33,020 bases of DNA from Clostridiales bacterium (lineage in GTDB: Bacteria; Bacillota; Clostridia; Oscillospirales; Oscillospiraceae), in the NCBI GenBank assembly GCA_021201635.1, contig JAJQEM010000102.1, positions 1 to 33,020 on the forward strand, written 5' to 3'. Each line of letters begins with the position of its first letter. Within the stretch, counting starts at the first letter, position 1. Below the pieces are notes generated by a model. The model saw only the letters and a program-made list of their open reading frames with translations, was not told where the DNA came from and did no database searches. Positions 3,418-19,167 of the stretch are shown piece after piece. A program made the position numbers and the translations under genes.

Positions 3418-4428
3418 TCAGACCGCTGTTTTGGGGTTCGATACACCGTTGACCACACAGGTTGGCCGCTCTCCCCTCTCGACGGCGGCGACGTTGTCCC
3501 ACATCCGGCTGTGCATCCGGCGGAAGCAGCCGGTGGTGACCCCGCCAATGTGGGGGGAGAACAGGATACGGCACGGGTGCTCTGCGGCGAAGCGGACCAG
3601 GGGGTTGTCCCGGGTGACCGGCTCCGGGGTCAGGGTATCCAGCCCTGCTCCCTCCAGATGGCCGGAGGCCAGGGCCTGGACCAGGGCCTCTTGGTCCACC
3701 AGGTCGCCCCGGGCGGTGTTGACGAGGAAGGCTCCGGGCTTCATCCGCCCCAGGGTCTCCCGGTTCATCATCCCCACTGTCTCCGGCGTGACCGCAGAGT
3801 GGAGGCTGACGATGTCGCTCTGGGCCAGCAGGTCGTCCAGGGAGCGGTATTCCACGCAGTACCGGGCCTCCGTCTCCCCGTCCTTCCGGTGGGGGCTATA
3901 GTACAGGCAGTTTGCCCCGAAGGCGTGGAGGAGCAGCGCCGTCTGCCGTGCGATGTTGCCGAAGCCCACAAGGCCCACGGTGCAGTCCCGCAACTCGGTG
4001 ATGCCGCTGACCATCTTCTCCTCCTTTATATTGATCTGTCTGCCGTCCAGGACCGCCCGGTGGCCCCCCTCCACAAAGCGGAGCAGCCCCAGCATGAGCA
4101 GGATGGCCTGCTCCGCCACTGCCTGGGCATTGGCCCCCTGGTTGTTGCAGACGTAGACGCCCCGCTCCCGGGCCGCCGCCCCGTCGATGCGGTCATAGGC
4201 GGCTCCCTCGGAGTGAATGAGCCGGAGGTTGGGCATCTGGGCGATCAGGTCAGCGTCCACAGTGGCGATGGCGTCGGCCAGGATGACCTCTGCGTCTCCG
4301 GCGGCCTCCAGCAGCGCCCCGTTGAGGGTGCCCACAGGGCGATAGACCAGCTCGCACCGGCGGGCGATCCCGTCCTCCGGCATAAATTTCTCATAGCGGG
4401 ACTGGCTGGCGATAATCAGGATTTTCAT
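3418..4428 (-). CDS. D-isomer-specific 2-hydroxyacid dehydrogenase family protein (NAD-binding)
   Basis: 336-aa ORF with the Rossmann motif VGLVGFGNIARQTA, the catalytic-region motif NTARGDLVDQEAL, GAGLDTLTPEP and FSPHIGG. Confidence 0.93.
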   Translation of the reverse strand: MKILIIASQSRYEKFMPEDGIARRCELVYRPVGTLNGALLEAAGDAEVILADAIATVDADLIAQMPNLRLIHSEGAAYDRIDGAAARERGVYVCNNQGANAQAVAEQAILLMLGLLRFVEGGHRAVLDGRQINIKEEKMVSGITELRDCTVGLVGFGNIARQTALLLHAFGANCLYYSPHRKDGETEARYCVEYRSLDDLLAQSDIVSLHSAVTPETVGMMNRETLGRMKPGAFLVNTARGDLVDQEALVQALASGHLEGAGLDTLTPEPVTRDNPLVRFAAEHPCRILFSPHIGGVTTGCFRRMHSRMWDNVAAVERGERPTCVVNGVSNPKTAV

Positions 4429-4683
4429 GGCGTACGGCTCCTTTGGCGGTTTTCTGTGTGTTCTGTCCTCTATTATACGGCAGGATGGGCCAATTTTCTA
4501 CCCCTCCTTCCCGGAAAAGGGCTTTAGAACGGCTATTTTTGAAAAAAGGCATTCTCTTTTTTCATTTCCATGTTATAATGAGATTGACATTTTTTCCCAA
4601 GCTGGCCGTCAGGGGGCGCAGCGGCGGGAAAAACAGCGGGAGAGAGCTGTGTTCAGAAAAGGTGAGAAAAGGAGAGGGAGCAA

Positions 4684-5859
4684 ATGTTCAGCAGTATGTA
4701 TTTTTACCTGATGGTCGTGGTGGTCGTGTTCGCCTTGGGCGATCTGGTCGCTCACTTTACGAAGGGCCGTCTGTCCGGCATGATGATCGTCATGCTGATT
4801 TTTCTGGTGGGATTTCTGGCGGGGGTGTTCCCGGCGGACATCATCGATCAGGCGGGGCTGACCGAACTGTCCAGCCTTGCTATCGCCATGGTGCTCTTTA
4901 ATATGGGGACGACCATCAATGTCCGGCAGCTGATTCAGGAGTGGAAAACGGTCCTGATGGCGGCCCTCTGTATGGTGACCTCCTGTCTCCTGCTGCTGGT
5001 GGCGGCGCCCATCATCGGGCTGGACACCGTCCTGGTGGGGATGCCGGTCATCAACGGCGGGGCTATGGCTACCTCGCTGATGACGGCGGCGGCCACGGAA
5101 AAGGGCCTGACCACCGCCGCCGCTCTCTGTGCGGTGATTTATTCGGTGCAGAAGCTGGTGGGTGCGCCCATCGCCTCCGCCATGGGTCTGAAATACGCCC
5201 GGAAGCTGGTGGCCGAGTTCCGCACCGACCCGGAGGGAAAGATGGCGGCGATGAAGGCAAAGCAGAGCAGCGTCTCGTCGGAAAAGGTCCCCTTTTACGA
5301 AAAGCACAAGGCGCTGTATACGGCGAACCTGGACATTGCCATCGTCTGCGTAGGCGGGTGGCTGGCCAGAAGTCTCGGCGGTGTGACGCCCATCAACTAC
5401 GCAGTGTGGGCGCTGGTCCTGGGGTCTCTGTCCGGGATCGGCGGCTTCATCCCGCCCAAGCCCCTGCAGCGGGGCTCCTCCTACGGGATTTTAATGATCG
5501 CCATTTACGGGTCCATCATCCCCTCCCTGGCGACGGTCTCTCTGTCCGACCTGGGCTCTATGGCATTTCAGACCGTCCTGCTGGCAATCATCGGCGTGGT
5601 GCTGGTGAGCTATGTGCTGCCCATCGGCAAACTGCTGGTGGGGGACAAGGATCTGGCCATGGGCATCGGCGTGGAGCAGTTCCTGGGCTTCCCCAGCAAT
5701 GTAGTCATCTGCCGTGAGGTGGCGGAGGCCGTGGGCGAGACGCCGGAGGAAAAGACGTACATCGAGGACACGCTGAACGTGCCCTATGTGGTGGGCGGCA
5801 TTACGGTGGTGACCATCCTGTCCGTCCTGATGGCGGGCTTCGTGATCGGGCTGCTGTGA
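4684..5859 (+). CDS. Predicted multi-TM transporter-like membrane protein
   Basis: 391-aa strongly hydrophobic ORF with about 10 TM-like segments and a conserved-looking GMPVINGGAMATSLMTAAATEKGL motif; AGGGAG RBS before the ATG. Family not firmly recognised. Confidence 0.75.
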   Translation: MFSSMYFYLMVVVVVFALGDLVAHFTKGRLSGMMIVMLIFLVGFLAGVFPADIIDQAGLTELSSLAIAMVLFNMGTTINVRQLIQEWKTVLMAALCMVTSCLLLLVAAPIIGLDTVLVGMPVINGGAMATSLMTAAATEKGLTTAAALCAVIYSVQKLVGAPIASAMGLKYARKLVAEFRTDPEGKMAAMKAKQSSVSSEKVPFYEKHKALYTANLDIAIVCVGGWLARSLGGVTPINYAVWALVLGSLSGIGGFIPPKPLQRGSSYGILMIAIYGSIIPSLATVSLSDLGSMAFQTVLLAIIGVVLVSYVLPIGKLLVGDKDLAMGIGVEQFLGFPSNVVICREVAEAVGETPEEKTYIEDTLNVPYVVGGITVVTILSVLMAGFVIGLL

Positions 5860-9309: not shown

Positions 9310-9370
9310 ACTTCTCAACCCTTTCGATGTTTGCGATATTTGGCATACAGTTCGGACGGAAGACCCGTAC

Positions 9371-9424
9371 AAACAAAGAAGGCGACAACGATTCCCTGCT
9401 CTCTCAGGGGACGCCATTGTCACC
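9371..9424 (-). promoter_or_regulatory. Putative ANTAR-binding tandem hairpin overlapping an intrinsic terminator in the glnN leader
   Basis: Minus-strand RNA: P1 GAC-AAUGGC-GUC, then P2 CCCUG-AGAGAG-CAGGG (both hexaloops have A1 and G4). Alternative stem GGUGACAAUGG/UCGUUGUCGCC (11 pairs, 3 GU) followed by UUCUUUGUUU. Confidence 0.6.
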
Positions 9425-9481
9425 TTTACTCTCGTGTCTGTTCGGTTATGAGGCCCCGGAGAGCCTCCGCTTCACAACACA

Positions 9482-9831: not shown

Positions 9832-11160
9832 ATGAGTCACACAAAAGAGGATATTCTCCGCATCGTCCGGGAGGAGGATGTGAAATTTGTCCGGATGCAG
9901 TTCGTAGACGTATTCGGCGAGCTGAAAAACGTGGCGGTCATGGCCTCCCAGTTGGAGGACGCCCTGGACAATGGCGTGATGATCGACGGCTCCTCTATTG
10001 AGGGCTTTGTCCGGGTCAACGAGTCCGACCAGTTTCTCCGCCCCGACCTGGACACCTTCGCCATCTATCCCTGGCGGCCCAGCCGGGGCCGGGTGGGCCG
10101 TCTGCTGTGCGACGTGTACAGCGCCGACGGCACCCCGTTTGTCGGCGATCCCAGAGGGGTGCTTCGCCGGGCGGTGAGCCGGGCGGCGGAGCTAGGCTAC
10201 ACCCTGAACATCGGCCCGGAGTGCGAGTTCTTCCTGTTCCAGACAGACGACCGGGGCCGCCCCACCACCGAGACCATCGACCATGTGGGCTATTTCGACC
10301 TGGGTCCTCTGGATCAGGGGGAGGCCACCCGCCGGGAGATCTGTCTGAGCCTGGAGGAACTGGGCTTCACCGTGGAGGCCAGCCATCACGAGATGGCCCC
10401 CGGTCAGCATGAGGTGGATTTCCGCTATGAGGAGGCCCTCCACGCAGCGGACAATCTCACCACCTTCAAGCTGGCGGTCAAGACCATCGCCCAGCGCAAC
10501 GGCCTTCACGCCACCTTTATGCCCAAGCCCCTGAGCGACGCCCCCGGCTCCGGCTTGCACATCAATCTCTCCCTCCACCGGGACGGGAAAAACCTGTTCT
10601 GCGACCCGGCAGGGGTACACGGGCTGTCCAAAGAGGCCTATTCCTTTATTGCGGGCATGATGGCCCACATCGACGCCATCACCGCCATTGCCAATCCCCT
10701 GGTCAACAGCTACAAGCGGCTGACTCCGGGCTATTCCGCCCCCTGCTATGTGTGCTGGTCAGAGTCCAACCGCTCCGCCCTCATCCGTATCCCCGCTGCC
10801 CGGGGAGAGCACACCCGGCTGGAGTTCCGCAGTCCCGACCCCGCCTGCAATCCCTACCTGACCTTTGCGGTCTGTCTGGCCGCCGGTCTGGACGGCGTTG
10901 AACGGGGCCTGACCCCTCCGGCGGAGAATACGGAAAACGTCTACCGCCTCTCTGACCACCGGCGCTCGGCTCTGGGCATTGCCAGTCTCCCCGCCAATCT
11001 GAAGGAGGCCATCGACGCCCTCCGGGCAGACCAGTTCATCCTGGACGTGCTGGGGCCTCACGTCTCCGCCGCCTATCTGGAGGGCAAGACCGCCGAGTGG
11101 GACAGCTATCGGCGGCAGGTCTCCCAGTGGGAACATGACCAGTACCTGATTCGTTATTAA
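9832..11160 (+). CDS. glnA: Glutamine synthetase type I
   Basis: 442 aa with MIDGSSIEGFVRVNESDQFLRPD, GPECEFFLF, EASHHEMAPGQHEVDFRY, MPKPLSDAPGSGLHINLSL, NSYKRLTPGYSAPCYVCWSESNRSALIRIP and TRLEFRSPDPACNPYL. Confidence 0.97.
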   Translation: MSHTKEDILRIVREEDVKFVRMQFVDVFGELKNVAVMASQLEDALDNGVMIDGSSIEGFVRVNESDQFLRPDLDTFAIYPWRPSRGRVGRLLCDVYSADGTPFVGDPRGVLRRAVSRAAELGYTLNIGPECEFFLFQTDDRGRPTTETIDHVGYFDLGPLDQGEATRREICLSLEELGFTVEASHHEMAPGQHEVDFRYEEALHAADNLTTFKLAVKTIAQRNGLHATFMPKPLSDAPGSGLHINLSLHRDGKNLFCDPAGVHGLSKEAYSFIAGMMAHIDAITAIANPLVNSYKRLTPGYSAPCYVCWSESNRSALIRIPAARGEHTRLEFRSPDPACNPYLTFAVCLAAGLDGVERGLTPPAENTENVYRLSDHRRSALGIASLPANLKEAIDALRADQFILDVLGPHVSAAYLEGKTAEWDSYRRQVSQWEHDQYLIRY

Positions 11161-11172: not shown

Positions 11173-11194
11173 CTGAGACTGGGAGTTGTTTTAT

Positions 11195-11725
11195 GTGGAG
11201 AGAGTGATCGTCGTCTTTGACAGCGACAAGAGCGCCCGGCGCATCTGCGAGATGATCGAGTCCGCCGGGGCCGCAGAGTGTCAGCTCTGCCGCTCGGGCG
11301 GAGAGGCCCGCCGGGCCGTCGCAAAGTATGATATTGATTTGGTGATCTGCGGCTTCCGCCTGCCGGACGGCACGGGGGAAAGCCTGTTTGAAGACCTGCC
11401 GGAGGGCGCCTCCATGCTGATGATCGCCCCCCAGCACCAGCTGGATCTGGTGAGCGACGACATCTTCCGTCTCCCCGCTCCCATCTCCAGAAGCGATCTG
11501 GTGGCCTCGGTGCGGATGGTGCTCCAGATGAGCCACCGCCTCAGCCGGCTGGTAAAGCCCCGGAGAAGCAGCGAGGATCAGGTCTTGATCCGCCGTGCCA
11601 AGGAGCTGCTGATGGAGCGCAACGGCCTCACGGAGGAGCAGGCCCACCGTATGTTACAGAAAAAGAGCATGGACTCCGGGGTCAACCTGGTACAGACCGC
11701 CCGGCTGGTGCTGGGCGACCTGTGA
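11195..11725 (+). CDS. ANTAR-domain RNA-binding antitermination regulator with degenerate receiver domain (NitR-like)
   Basis: C-terminal ANTAR signature [40 protein letters not shown]. Receiver-like N-terminus [44 protein letters not shown] start at 11195 with GGGAG upstream. Confidence 0.88.
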
Positions 11726-11757
11726 CCGCCCCGGAAGATACAGGAGGGAGAGTTCCT

Positions 11758-12984
11758 ATGGTCAAAGTGAATCAGAATTTCACCAAGCTCCCCGGAGGCT
11801 ATCTGTTTCCGGAGATCGGGCGGCGGGTGCGTGCCTTCTCCGCCCAGAACCCGCCCAAGCCGCTCATCCGTCTGGGCATCGGCGACGTGACCCAGCCCCT
11901 GGCCCCCGCCGTCATTCAGGCGATGGAGCAGGCCACTGCAGAGATGGGCAAAAAGGAGACCTTCCGGGGCTACTGCGAGGAGACCAACGCCGCTTATGAC
12001 TTCCTCCGCTACGCCATCCGGGATGATTACAAGCGCCGGGGGGTGGACATCGAAGATGACGAGATCTTCGTCTCCGACGGAGCCAAGAGCGACTGCGGCA
12101 ACATCGGGGACATCTTCTCGGTGGACAACGTGGTGGCCGTCTGCGACCCGGTCTACCCCGTCTATGTGGACACCAACGCCATGGCCGGACGGGCCGGGGA
12201 CTACGACGGGGAGAAGTGGACCGACCTGGTCTACCTCCCCTGCACCGCCGACAACGGCTTCTTCCCCGACCTCCCTGCCGGGGACCGGGTCCCGGACATG
12301 ATTTACCTCTGCTCCCCCAACAACCCCACCGGGGCCGCCGCCACACGGGAGCAGCTTCAGACCTGGGTGGATTACGCCAACGAGCACGGCTCGGTCATCC
12401 TCTTTGACTCCGCCTATGAGGCGTTCATCTCCGAGCCGGGTATCCCCCACTCCATCTTTGAGATTCCCGGGGCCAAGACCTGCGCCATCGAGTTCCGCTC
12501 CTTCTCCAAGACGGCAGGCTTCACCGGCAACCGGTGCGCCTACACCGTCATCTCCAAGGAGCTGGTGCGGGAGGGGGTCAGCCTAAACCGGCTATGGAAC
12601 CGCCGCCAGGGCACCAAGTTCAACGGCGTGCCCTACGTCATCCAGCGGGCTGCCGAGGCCACCTTCACCCAGGAGGGCCAGTCCCAGATCAAGGAGACCA
12701 TCCAGTATTACCTGGACAACGCCAGGGTCATTCGGGAGGGCCTGACCGCCGCCGGGCTCACCGTCTACGGCGGAGTGAACGCCCCCTATATCTGGTTCCG
12801 CACCCCGGAGGGGTACGGCTCCTGGGAGTTCTTCGACAAGCTGCTCCATGAGGCCTGCGTGGTCACCACTCCCGGCGCCGGGTTCGGCCCCAGCGGAGAG
12901 GGATATATCCGGCTCACCGCCTTTGGCGACGCCGACGACACCCGGGAGGCGGTCCGCCGCATCCAGGAGCTGCTGAGCAAGTAA
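11758..12984 (+). CDS. dapL: LL-diaminopimelate aminotransferase
   Basis: [74 protein letters not shown] and [26 protein letters not shown]. Confidence 0.95.
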
Positions 12985-13013
12985 GATACAAAAGATACAA
13001 CTGCAACGACGTC

Positions 13014-13089
13014 AGAAAAGTGCCTCAATGGGGAGGCCGCAAAGAGGAGATTTTGCACCCTTTTTCGGCTGCCTGAGGCACTTTTTTCT
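13014..13089 (+). promoter_or_regulatory. Putative ANTAR-binding tandem hairpin overlapping an intrinsic terminator in the dapL-gltB intergenic leader
   Basis: P1 GCCTC-AATGGG-GAGGC (13022-13037); P2 GCAAAG-AGGAGA-TTTTGC (13039-13056). Competing stem AAAAGTGCCTCA (13016-13027)/TGAGGCACTTTT (13074-13085), with U-tract to 13087. Confidence 0.62.
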
Positions 13090-13114
13090 GGAAAGGGAAA
13101 GGGGAACGAGACAG

Positions 13115-16100
13115 ATGGAACAAGTGAGAACGGAGAGCACCATGCCCGCCCAGGGCCTCTATGACCCCCGCTTTGAGCACGACGCCTGCGGCATCGGCTG
13201 CGTGGTGGACATCAAGGGCCGGAAGAGCTACGCAACCGTGGACAACGCCCTGAAGATCGTGGAAAAGCTGGAGCACCGGGCCGGAAAGGACGCCGAGGGC
13301 AAGACCGGCGACGGCGTGGGTATCATGCTCCAGATCGGGCACAAATTCTTCCGGAAGGCCGCCCAGCAGGCGGGCTTTTCCGTGGGGGAGGAGCGGGACT
13401 ACGGCATCGGTATGTTTTTCTTCCCCCAGAACACCCTGGCCCGGAATCAGGCCAAGAAGATGTTCGAAATCATCGTGGAGAAGGAGGGCATGGAGCTGCT
13501 GGGCTGGCGCACCGTGCCCACCCATCCGGAGGTGCTGGGGCAGAAGGCTGTCTCCTGCATGCCCTACATCGAGCAGGCGTTCATCCGCCGCCCGGACGGG
13601 GTGAAGAAGGGCCTGGCCTTCGACCGGAAGCTGTACATCGCCCGCCGGGTGTTCGAGCAGTCCAACGACAATACCTACGTGGTCTCCTGCTCCAGCCGTA
13701 CCATCGTCTACAAGGGCATGTTCCTGGTAGCGGAGCTGCGGCAGTTCTACACCGACCTCCAGGATGAGGACTATGAGTCCGCCATCGCCATGGTCCACTC
13801 CCGGTTCTCCACCAACACCAACCCCTCCTGGGAGCGGGCCCACCCCAACCGGTTCATCCTCCACAACGGCGAGATCAACACCATCCGGGGCAACGTAGAC
13901 CGGATGCTGGCCCGGGAGGAGACCATGAAGTCCAACGTCCTCAGCGAGGACGACCTGGACAAGATCTATCCCGTCATCAACCCGGTGGGCTCCGACTCCG
14001 CCCGGCTGGACAACACCCTGGAGTTTCTGGTGATGAACGGCATCGAGCTGCCCATGGCGGTGATGATGTGCATCCCCGAGCCCTGGGTGAACGACAAGAA
14101 TATGTCCCGGACCAAGCGGGATATGTACCGCTACTACGCCACCATGATGGAGCCCTGGGACGGCCCCGCCTCCATCCTGTTCTCCGACGGCGACTGTGTG
14201 GGAGCCGTGCTGGACCGGAACGGTCTGCGCCCCTCCCGGTACTACATCACCTCCGACGACCAGCTGGTGCTCTCCTCCGAGGTGGGCGTGCTGGAGTTCC
14301 CGGCAGAGAAGGTGGTCAAAAAGTCCCGGCTCCAGCCCGGCAAGATGCTGCTGGTGGACACCGTCCAGGGCCGTCTCATCACCGACGACGAGCTGAAGGA
14401 GGGCTACGCCGTCCGTCAGCCCTACGGCGAGTGGCTGGACATGAATCTGATTCATCTCTCCGACCTGAAGATCCCCAACAAGAAGGTGCCCAGCTACGAC
14501 CAGGAACACCGGGACCGGCTGTACAAGGCCTTTGGCTACACCTATGAGGAGGTCAAAAACTCCATCCTCCTCATGGCCCAGACCGGCGCAGAGCCCACCG
14601 CCGCCATGGGTGTGGACATCCCCCTGGCGGTGCTGTCGGAGAAGCACCAGTCTCTGTTTAACTACTTCAAGCAGCTCTTCGCCCAGGTCACCAACCCCCC
14701 CATCGACGCCATCCGGGAGGAGATTGTCACCGACACCTCTGTCTATCTGGGCCGGGAGGGCAACCTGCTGGAGGAGCAGGCGGAGAACTGCAAGATGCTC
14801 CGCATCCACAACCCCATCCTCACCAGCATCGACCTGATGAAGATCCGCAGTATGAAGGTCCCCGGCTTCAAGGTGGAGACCGTCTCCCTGCTGTACTACA
14901 AGAACACCCCCCTGGAGCGGGCCATTGACCGGATGTTTGTCTCCGTGGACCGGGCCTATCGGAACGGGGCCAACATCATCATCCTCTCCGACCGTGGGGT
15001 GGACGAGAACCATGTGGCTATCCCCTCCCTGCTGGCCGTCTCCGCTCTGGAGCAGTATCAGATCCGCACCCGGAAGCGCACCTCCCTCTCCATCATCCTG
15101 GAGTCTGCCGAGCCCCGGGAGGTCCACCACTTCGCCACCCTTCTGGGCTACGGCGCGGCGGCCATCAACCCTTATCTGGCCCAGGAATGCATCGGCGAGC
15201 TGATCGACAAGAACCTGCTGGACAAGGAGTACTCCGCCGCCGTGGACGACTACAACCAGGCCGTCCTCAACGGCATCGTGAAGATCGCCTCTAAAATGGG
15301 GATCTCCACCCTCCAGTCCTACCAGTCCGCCCAGATCTTCGAGGCGGTGGGCATCAACCAGGAGGTCATCGACAAGTACTTCACCAACACCGTCTCCCGG
15401 GTGGGGGGCATCGGTCTGAAGGAGATCGACGACGTGGTGGAGTGGCGGCACAACCACGCCTTCGACCCTCTGGGCCTGACCACCGACACCACCCTGGACT
15501 CCGTGGGTGCTCACAAGTCCCGGGCGGGCTACGACGCCGAGGACCACCTGTACAACCCTGTCACCATCAGCCTGCTCCAGCAGGCCCTTTGGAACTCGGA
15601 CTACGCCACCTTCAAGAAGTACTCCGCCGCTGTGGACGACGAGAATAAGCCCCACACCCTCCGGGGCCTGATGGCCTTCCGGTTCGATGAAAACGGCGGC
15701 ATCCCCATCGACGAGGTGGAGCCGGTGGAGTCCATTGTAAAGCGGTTCAAGACCGCCGCCATGAGCTACGGCTGCCTCTCCGCCGAGGCTCACGAGTGCA
15801 TGGCCATCGCCATGAACCGGCTGGGCGGCAAGTCCAACACCGGCGAGGGCGGCGAGCCCTCCTACCGGTACGGCACGGAGCGGAACTCCCAGATCAAGCA
15901 GGTGGCCTCCGCCCGGTTCGGCGTCACCAGCGAGTACCTGATGAGCGCCAACGAAATTCAGATCAAGATGGCTCAGGGGGCCAAGCCCGGCGAGGGCGGA
16001 CACCTCCCCGGCAAAAAGGTCTATCCCTGGGTGGCAAAGGCCCGTTACTCCACACCCGGCGTGCCCCTGATCTCTCCCCCGCCCCATCACGACATCTACT

Positions 16101-17668
16101 CCATTGAGGACCTGGCCCAGCTGATCTACGACCTGAAAAACGCCAACCGGAACGCCCGCATTAACGTGAAGCTGGTCTCTGAGGCAGGCGTGGGCACCAT
16201 CGCCGCAGGCGTGGCCAAGGGCGGCGCTCAGGTGGTGCTGATCTCCGGCTATGACGGCGGCTCCGGAGCCGCCCCCAAGAGCTCCATCCACAACGCCGGT
16301 CTCCCCTGGGAGCTGGGCGTGGCGGAGACCCACCAGACACTCATTCAGAATGACCTCCGCTCCCGCATCGTCATCGAGGCAGACTCCAAGCTGATGACTG
16401 GGCGGGACGTGGCTATCGCATGTCTGCTGGGAGCCGAGGAGTTCGGCTTCGGCACCGGCCCCATGGTGGCCATGGGCTGCGTCATGATGCGGGTGTGCAA
16501 CCTGGACACTTGCCCCATGGGCATCGCCACCCAGAACCCGGAGCTGCGCAAGCGGTTCATCGGCAAGCCGGAGTATGTGGAGAACTACATGCGCTACATT
16601 GCCCAGGAGCTGCGGGAGATCATGGCAAAGCTGGGTATCCGCACCGTGGCGGAGATGGTAGGCCGCTCCGACCTGCTCAAGGTCCGGGAGCACATGGTCA
16701 CTGACCGGGCCGCCACCGTAGACCTGTCCCGTATCCTGAACAACCCCTGGATCGACGACCCCCGGCCCCAGCACTTTGTCCCCGAGGATGTGTACGACTT
16801 CCAGCTGGAAAAGACCCTGGACGAGTCGGTGCTGCTCAAGCGGATGGGCAAGAATCTGGCCAAGGGCAAGCCTCAGCGCATTGAGATCGACGTGACCTCC
16901 ACCGACCGGGCCCTGGGCACCATCTTTGGCTCGGAGATTACCCGGCTGTACCGCAACACCCTGCCGGACGACAGCTATGTGGTCAAGTGCAGCGGCGGCG
17001 GCGGACAGTCCTTCGGCGCATTTATTCCCAAGGGCCTGACCCTGGAGCTGGAGGGCGATTCCAACGACTATCTGGGCAAGGGCCTCTCCGGCGGCAAGAT
17101 CATCGTCTACCCGCCCAAGGGCAGCCAGTTCAAGGCGGAGGAGAACATCATCATCGGCAACGTGGCCCTCTACGGCGCCACCGGCGGCGAGGCGTATATC
17201 TCCGGCGTGGCCGGGGAGCGGTTCTGCGTCCGCAACTCCGGCGCTACGGCGGTAGTCGAGGGCGTGGGCGACCACGGCTGCGAGTACATGACCGGTGGCC
17301 GGGCGGTGGTCCTCGGTCCCACGGGCAAGAACTTTGCGGCAGGTATGTCCGGCGGCATCGCCTATGTGCTGGACATGAAGCGGGATCTCTATATGCGGGT
17401 GAACAAGTCCATGGTGACCATGGAGACGGTCACGGAGAAGCACGACATTATGGAGCTGAAATCCCTCATCCAGAAGCACGTCCAGGCAACCGGCTCTGAG
17501 CTGGGCAAGCGCATCCTCTACAACTTTGACGCCTACCTGCCCAACTTCAAGAAGATCATGCCTCAGGACTACAACCGGATGCTCCAGGCCATCGCCCAGC
17601 GGGAGGAGAAGGGCATGACCCGGGAGCAGGCGGAGATCGACGCATTCTATGCGACGGTCAACCAGTAA
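13115..17668 (+). CDS. gltB: Glutamate synthase large subunit
   Basis: About 1517 aa from MEQVRTESTMPAQGLYDPRFEHDACGIGCVVDIKG (GATase type 2 Cys), with GLRPSRYYIT, GEGGEPSYRYGTERNSQIKQVASARFGV, KPGEGGHLPGKKV, SGYDGGSGAAP and LDTCPMGIATQ; AAAGGGG RBS. Confidence 0.97.
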   Translation: MEQVRTESTMPAQGLYDPRFEHDACGIGCVVDIKGRKSYATVDNALKIVEKLEHRAGKDAEGKTGDGVGIMLQIGHKFFRKAAQQAGFSVGEERDYGIGMFFFPQNTLARNQAKKMFEIIVEKEGMELLGWRTVPTHPEVLGQKAVSCMPYIEQAFIRRPDGVKKGLAFDRKLYIARRVFEQSNDNTYVVSCSSRTIVYKGMFLVAELRQFYTDLQDEDYESAIAMVHSRFSTNTNPSWERAHPNRFILHNGEINTIRGNVDRMLAREETMKSNVLSEDDLDKIYPVINPVGSDSARLDNTLEFLVMNGIELPMAVMMCIPEPWVNDKNMSRTKRDMYRYYATMMEPWDGPASILFSDGDCVGAVLDRNGLRPSRYYITSDDQLVLSSEVGVLEFPAEKVVKKSRLQPGKMLLVDTVQGRLITDDELKEGYAVRQPYGEWLDMNLIHLSDLKIPNKKVPSYDQEHRDRLYKAFGYTYEEVKNSILLMAQTGAEPTAAMGVDIPLAVLSEKHQSLFNYFKQLFAQVTNPPIDAIREEIVTDTSVYLGREGNLLEEQAENCKMLRIHNPILTSIDLMKIRSMKVPGFKVETVSLLYYKNTPLERAIDRMFVSVDRAYRNGANIIILSDRGVDENHVAIPSLLAVSALEQYQIRTRKRTSLSIILESAEPREVHHFATLLGYGAAAINPYLAQECIGELIDKNLLDKEYSAAVDDYNQAVLNGIVKIASKMGISTLQSYQSAQIFEAVGINQEVIDKYFTNTVSRVGGIGLKEIDDVVEWRHNHAFDPLGLTTDTTLDSVGAHKSRAGYDAEDHLYNPVTISLLQQALWNSDYATFKKYSAAVDDENKPHTLRGLMAFRFDENGGIPIDEVEPVESIVKRFKTAAMSYGCLSAEAHECMAIAMNRLGGKSNTGEGGEPSYRYGTERNSQIKQVASARFGVTSEYLMSANEIQIKMAQGAKPGEGGHLPGKKVYPWVAKARYSTPGVPLISPPPHHDIYSIEDLAQLIYDLKNANRNARINVKLVSEAGVGTIAAGVAKGGAQVVLISGYDGGSGAAPKSSIHNAGLPWELGVAETHQTLIQNDLRSRIVIEADSKLMTGRDVAIACLLGAEEFGFGTGPMVAMGCVMMRVCNLDTCPMGIATQNPELRKRFIGKPEYVENYMRYIAQELREIMAKLGIRTVAEMVGRSDLLKVREHMVTDRAATVDLSRILNNPWIDDPRPQHFVPEDVYDFQLEKTLDESVLLKRMGKNLAKGKPQRIEIDVTSTDRALGTIFGSEITRLYRNTLPDDSYVVKCSGGGGQSFGAFIPKGLTLELEGDSNDYLGKGLSGGKIIVYPPKGSQFKAEENIIIGNVALYGATGGEAYISGVAGERFCVRNSGATAVVEGVGDHGCEYMTGGRAVVLGPTGKNFAAGMSGGIAYVLDMKRDLYMRVNKSMVTMETVTEKHDIMELKSLIQKHVQATGSELGKRILYNFDAYLPNFKKIMPQDYNRMLQAIAQREEKGMTREQAEIDAFYATVNQ

Positions 17669-17682
17669 AGGAGGCGTCTATC

Positions 17683-19167
<1,485 letters not shown>

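Follow-up and report, generated by a model that had tools for sequence, protein, structure and literature searches.

Switches in which an ANTAR protein governs the stopping of transcription were thought to require two hexaloop hairpins, and the locus described here raises the question of whether a single one may be enough. In the 33,020-nucleotide stretch of DNA under study (the window), a complete contig from the 1.85-Mb genome (G000) of a gut bacterium of the Oscillospiraceae, the gap between dapL and gltB holds a leader in which the original prediction recognized two consecutive hairpins, P1 and P2, opposed by a terminator. Our analysis suggests that this leader is probably an intra-operonic attenuator of gltBD under the control of NitR, with one hexaloop competing against the terminator. 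The genes concerned, with the basis of each assignment in brackets, are:

9832 to 11160, + strand: glnA (Pfam)
11186 to 11725, + strand: nitR, encoding a pseudo-receiver and ANTAR protein, the proposed regulator (Pfam PF03861, genome count, alignments)
11722 to 12984, + strand: dapL, with its stop at 12984 (Pfam, class I/II aminotransferase only)
13115 to 17668, + strand: gltB, glutamate synthase large subunit, ATG at 13115, the first gene 3' of the switch (Pfam)
17683 to 19167, + strand: gltD, glutamate synthase small subunit (Pfam)

The name dapL is taken over from the original prediction, the Pfam match itself going no further than the class I/II aminotransferases. The ANTAR gene is clustered with glnA and the glutamate synthase genes, as in a NitR system, and glnN, which encodes a type III glutamine synthetase, diverges from glnA-nitR-dapL-gltBD. 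The element does lie where it had been placed, inside the operon between glnA-nitR-dapL and gltBD, and a promoter scan of the dapL-gltB gap returned no sigma-70-like promoter, in keeping with the earlier impression that the gap holds no convincing one. Elsewhere, a second glnA-nitR copy (L092; G053:C38, about 3920 to 4860) is followed by a dapF-like gene, and between nitR and that gene lie GAGAC[GAAGCA]GUCUC and a terminator-like GC hairpin, which suggests that NitR controls diaminopimelate genes there too.

The leader of gltB comprises the following elements:

13022 to 13037, + strand: antiterminator hexaloop hairpin GCCUC[AAUGGG]GAGGC, the former P1 (sequence, invariance, two-sided changes)
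13014 to 13027, + strand: 5' arm of the terminator stem, overlapping the hairpin 5' arm and the first loop base (fold, covariation)
13074 to 13087, + strand: 3' arm of the terminator stem, ending in U6 (13082 to 13087; fold, covariation, shuffles)
13032 to 13073, + strand: inner stem of the terminator, 13032 to 13049 with 13058 to 13073 (minimum free energy structure, AAAGAGG facing CCCUUUUUCGG)
13039 to 13056, + strand: GCAAAG[AGGAGA]UUUUGC, the former P2, not taken into the switch (weak, unconserved)

At the level of individual bases the original prediction was accurate throughout, for P1, the 1-nt linker, P2, the 12-bp stem and the U6 run alike. The hairpin at 13022 to 13037 has a perfect 5-bp stem and a hexaloop at 13027 to 13032, in which A1 is 13027 and G4 is 13030; it thus has the form of an ANTAR target (a hairpin of at least 3 bp bearing a hexaloop with A1 and G4), and it is conserved. 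In the long stem, a 12-bp core formed by AAAAGUGCCUCA (13016 to 13027) and UGAGGCACUUUU (13074 to 13085) is lengthened to 14 bp by two outer pairs. The terminator was said to capture the 5' arm of P1, and it does: 13014 to 13027 contains that arm, and by taking it the terminator excludes the hairpin. Within the inner stem, AAAGAGG facing CCCUUUUUCGG is retained in all seven of the closest leaders. The segment 13010 to 13090 folds as the long stem at -36.6 kcal/mol (z -4.0; 0 of 200 shuffles as low), while the best fold that retains the hairpin reaches -22.7 kcal/mol, leaving the terminator better by 14 kcal/mol. When folding was followed co-transcriptionally with a growing 3' end, the hairpin held a probability of about 0.95 until the end reached about 13065, with a dip at 13049 to 13053, and it prevailed in most steps as far as about 13069; the terminator replaced it at about 13077 to 13081 and had a probability of 1.0 from 13081. 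Transcription is predicted to stop near 13087.

Covariance analysis of related dapL-gltB gaps had been proposed as a check, and it bears out the exclusive pair of structures. Across 25 gltB leaders of the genus in which the hairpin was found, the hairpin is near-invariant and the long stem covaries. The 12-base core of the former, CUCAAUGGGGAG, is identical in 25 of 25, and its outer pairs are mostly kept (96.5% of cells paired). In the alignment of the long stem 93% of cells pair, two-sided changes occur at 7 of the 12 pairs, and there are 30 two-sided cells where shuffles give 9.6 (none of 500 reached the observed number); pairing is kept in variants such as GUGCCUCA/UGAGGCAC, AAGCGUCUC/GAGACGCUU, GGUGUCUCA/UGAGGCACC and GGCGUCUC/GGGACGCC. 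The 3' block was picked by best pairing, a choice that favours a stem, and as a control each downstream sequence was shuffled 300 times and the same pick made; the observed score was never reached in 19 of the 25 leaders, the window included. An antiterminator/terminator switch of the ANTAR type, as originally proposed, is supported.

Two groups of gltB leaders depart from this layout. In L011 to L016 and L018 the conserved long stem is followed by a poor U-tract (CUUUCC, CUUGUGCUUAU), so that these species may have no simple intrinsic terminator at this position. In Flavonifractor-type leaders (L183, L198, L201, L213, L217, L219, L220 and L222), GAGAC[RANGNN]GUCUC abuts a strong terminator with no overlap; in several of them the terminator loop contains GGAGAC or GGGGAC, to which the hairpin 3' arm GUCUC could pair instead, and the switch there may have a different geometry.

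The gltB element had been regarded as a relative of one before glnN, and a hairpin/terminator pair with an AAUGGC loop is indeed found there:

9410 to 9421, - strand: sister hairpin GAC[AAUGGC]GUC of the glnN leader, within a model match at 9371 to 9430 (sequence, covariance model)
9381 to 9424, - strand: glnN terminator, arms 9414 to 9424 and 9381 to 9391, U-rich tail 9370 to 9380 (comparison of glnN leaders)

A joint alignment of glnN and gltB leaders (A4) misaligned the hairpins and was replaced by two covariance models, one for each kind of leader, with which 32 genomes of the genus were searched. Strong matches were confined to the leaders of origin, normally one per genome, with weaker reverse-strand echoes besides. 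The only strong sites in G000 are 9371 to 9430 (- strand) and 13015 to 13090 (+ strand), and the genome encodes one ANTAR protein, NitR, between glnA and dapL. Among glnN leaders, (G)RC[AAUGGM]GUC or a near variant, together with an overlapping terminator, was present in 26 of 30 genomes. Three sister genomes (G010, G011 and G012) yielded no ANTAR protein and no match to the glnA or gltB of the window; glnN is kept in all three and its leader has no hairpin, a pattern drawn from few, related species. Genome G028 gave two gltB-model matches because it has two gltB clusters (G028:C98 and G028:C24; L005 and L098), the GltB N-termini of which are 98% and 82% identical to that of the window, reflecting either a paralogue or a mixed bin. 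In G006, a 93%-complete genome (L059, L099), the glnN leader has the variant hexaloop GGGC[AGUGGA]GUCU and a terminator, and an ANTAR protein was not found.

These distributions bear on a simpler explanation, namely that the element is a constitutive terminator or an mRNA-processing stem between transcription units, its hairpin being bound by some factor other than NitR or by nothing. The long stem and U6 suffice for such a function, and the stem persists in some relatives without a good U-tract. A plain terminator would have no need of the invariant AAUGGG loop and its closing pairs, nor of a common core before glnN, and it would not disappear from the glnN leaders of genomes in which no ANTAR protein is detected; we therefore regard this explanation as quite unlikely.

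The hexaloop also contains an AUG (13028) which, in the window, is in frame with gltB (ORF 13028 to 17668) and could be read as the start of a leader peptide or as an alternative start of gltB. The distance between the loop AUG and the gltB start is no multiple of three in several relatives, and a Shine-Dalgarno sequence is absent 5' of the AUG; the frame being unconserved among relatives, we take this start codon to be due to chance. A metabolite riboswitch, for example one for glutamine, is the other possibility of this kind. Rfam had no match in the window at the gathering score, and between 12950 and 13150 it returned weak matches only (E about 0.5 to 0.8), to unrelated eukaryotic families; known glutamine aptamers are far larger than the conserved core found here. 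Both readings, riboswitch and start codon, are very improbable.

The part of the original prediction that did not survive is the dual hairpin. P2 is worth -2.3 kcal/mol and, as had been cautioned, position 4 of its loop AGGAGA is A. Among the seven closest leaders the 5' side of P2, GCAAAGAGGAGA, does not vary; on the 3' side two leaders have UUUUGC and the remaining five have UUCUAU, UUUAU or UUUUAU, with loss of the stem. The P1-P2 linker is 1 nt (13038), compared with about 5 to 12 nt in eut and 2 to 25 nt in the actinobacterial curation, a shortfall that is moot without a second hexaloop. The pair of A1/G4 hairpins that defines the dual-hexaloop ANTAR target RNA (Ramesh 2012) is thus absent from the gltB leader. 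P2 corresponds largely to the terminator's inner stem, which takes in most of the P2 5' arm.

A canonical dual-hexaloop motif could nevertheless take either of two forms: P1 (13022 to 13037) and P2 (13039 to 13056) both contacted, or 13022 to 13037 serving as P2 behind a bulged hairpin, CUGC[AACGAC]G(U)CAG (13001 to 13015), as P1. Precedent favours it, every characterised ANTAR attenuator having two hexaloops (PMC3369931), and so do some relatives: in three sister gltB leaders (L008 to L010) the first hexaloop is followed, at a distance of 16 nt, by a true second A1/G4 hexaloop, and CCCUG[AGAGAG or AAAGAG]CAGGG occurs in five glnN leaders, that of the window among them. Set against this are the A4 loop, weak energy and frequent loss of P2 described above, and the alteration of the bulged hairpin in near relatives, for which it was rejected as an upstream P1. 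In related genera, moreover, the predicted glnA transcript start is only a few bases 5' of the hairpin and leaves no space for an upstream P1. Elsewhere in the family second A1/G4 hexaloops are sporadic and inconsistent in position, and L036, also close, has a tetraloop at the place of the second hexaloop. We consider a dual-hexaloop switch unlikely. As judged by sequence conservation, the conserved element is one hexaloop, and an enclosed second hairpin appears to be optional.

Other candidates for additional hairpins were set aside. In glnA leaders, the downstream second hexaloops (15 compared with 3.5 expected) proved for the most part to be stems within the terminator 3' strand that were wobble-paired or overlapping, and alternative hairpins at -10 in some gltB leaders, GAGA[ACGGCG]UCUC and AGA[AAGGUG]UCU, are clade-specific and share bases with the main hairpin.

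Within gltB leaders the hairpin varies too little for covariation to show. When gltB, glnN and glnA leaders from several genera are taken together (16 sequences), 94% of its cells are paired compared with 67% in shuffles, with 17 two-sided changes (0 of 500 shuffles), and the closing C-G pair and loop G4 are invariant. Leaders near NitR genes in named Oscillospiraceae contain an R-A-N-G-N-N hexaloop closed by C-G in 43 of 71 cases for glnA, 23 of 23 for glnN and 48 of 61 for gltB, where shuffles lead one to expect 4.3, 1.7 and 7.0, respectively; the glnA leader of the window itself has none. The rule in the glnA, glnN and gltB leaders of Oscillospiraceae is one R-A-N-G-N-N hexaloop per terminator. 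Outside the family, ANTAR-adjacent glnA and glnN leaders examined by eye also place a single hexaloop over a terminator, as in L256, L261, L267, L271 and L273. The glnN leader L274 has two hexaloops with a linker of zero, and its sister L275 retains the second hairpin, the loop of which differs. In G024, the ANTAR proteins of which belong to another subfamily, the glnA and glnN leaders contain GAAC[AAAGAG]GUUC and GAGAC[ACCGAG]GUCUC, each a hexaloop with a terminator.

Sequence and fold searches with NitR returned Rv1626, EutV, NasR (ANTAR part) and AmiR (1qo0), and the AlphaFold model has a mean pLDDT of 86. At the position aligned to the phospho-acceptor Asp of EutV, NitR has Gly, as do 15 of 16 orthologues (the other has Tyr), and in the NitR of the window the receiver Lys is lost too. 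The protein is consequently not a response regulator of the EutV kind and, by its alignment, is best described as a pseudo-receiver. Without the phospho-acceptor Asp, switching by phosphorylation is unlikely and the signal is probably no phosphoryl group; control through a partner protein, as for AmiR, is the most probable alternative. The orthologues (alignment A7) share an invariant Cys beside the lost phospho-Asp (V-x-C-G), possibly a sensing or structural residue.

In the mechanism that we propose, the nascent leader would by default zip 13014 to 13027 onto 13074 to 13087 and, with U6, end transcription near 13087, so that glnA-nitR-dapL would be made without gltBD. Active NitR, presumably under nitrogen limitation, would bind the lone hairpin at 13022 to 13037 through A1 and G4, and the 5' arm GCCUC, so held, would block the terminator and let polymerase enter gltBD. 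A protein gripping the hairpin during the folding interval, which lasts until about 13077 to 13081, would prevent termination, and NitR would act alike on the divergent glnN leader. This NitR attenuator is supported by the two exclusive structures, leader conservation with covariation, the two-site specificity of the models, the presence of just one ANTAR gene and the disappearance of the hairpin from G010 to G012, where no ANTAR protein was found; NitR binding to the hairpin, the direction of the switch and the nitrogen signal are inferences. Counting against it are the poor U-tracts of L011 to L016 and L018, the hairpin of G006 without an ANTAR protein and the non-overlapping Flavonifractor-type geometry.

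The single-hexaloop reading is opposed by experiments on EutV, in which two hexaloops were necessary for antitermination (PMC3369931, PMC8934654). In the EutV-RNA crystal structure an ANTAR dimer sits on a single hexaloop, with G4 as the sole base-specific contact; the same paper argues that two loops are needed in eut to beat the moving polymerase and leaves single-hexaloop sites as an open question (PMC8934654). NasR also binds one hairpin, more weakly, at about 12 uM (PMC7496416). If true, our reading would contradict the recruit-then-transfer model built on the two hexaloops of EutV. With dozens of leaders that oppose one hexaloop to a terminator, small regulons and a single ANTAR gene, that open question becomes testable in vitro. 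The chances seem to us about even that the GS/GOGAT leaders of Oscillospiraceae, and apparently of other Clostridia, constitute an undescribed class of ANTAR attenuator, in which one hexaloop suffices during active transcription and a pseudo-receiver NitR reads nitrogen free of phosphorylation. The system outlines a possible control of ammonium assimilation in gut bacteria, apparently with a non-phosphorylated sensor.

Akin to the EutV-dependent eut attenuators of Enterococcus faecalis (PMC3369931, PMC8934654), the gltB leader would set an A1/G4 hexaloop, exclusive with an intrinsic terminator, under antitermination by an ANTAR protein. It differs in having one conserved hexaloop where EutV has two with a 5 to 12 nt linker, in a terminator that takes the hairpin 5' arm and encloses the rest, and in a NitR that lacks the phospho-Asp. 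AmiR of the AmiR-AmiC pair of Pseudomonas aeruginosa is likewise a pseudo-receiver ANTAR protein, whereas no amiC-like partner adjoins nitR. In Desulfotomaculum reducens, a member of another family, glutamate synthase genes likewise have ANTAR-type elements associated with them (PMC3369931); those were found with a dual-hairpin model, a definition outside which the gltB-leader element would fall. In reported gene set and behaviour the locus also resembles the NitR cluster of Clostridium saccharobutylicum NCP262 (PMC6316151, citing Stutz et al. 2007), which has a similar set of glnA, nitR and glutamate synthase genes; here dapL stands between nitR and gltB, and the divergent glnN would also be a target. 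NitR of C. saccharobutylicum reportedly antiterminates and induces the GS/GOGAT genes on nitrogen limitation (PMC6316151), and by analogy the NitR of the window would activate gltBD and glnN under that condition. Parts of the gltB-leader architecture may already have been seen in the original NitR work. Antitermination of GS/GOGAT genes by NitR/ANTAR proteins is in principle known, and what is new is the single-hexaloop architecture.
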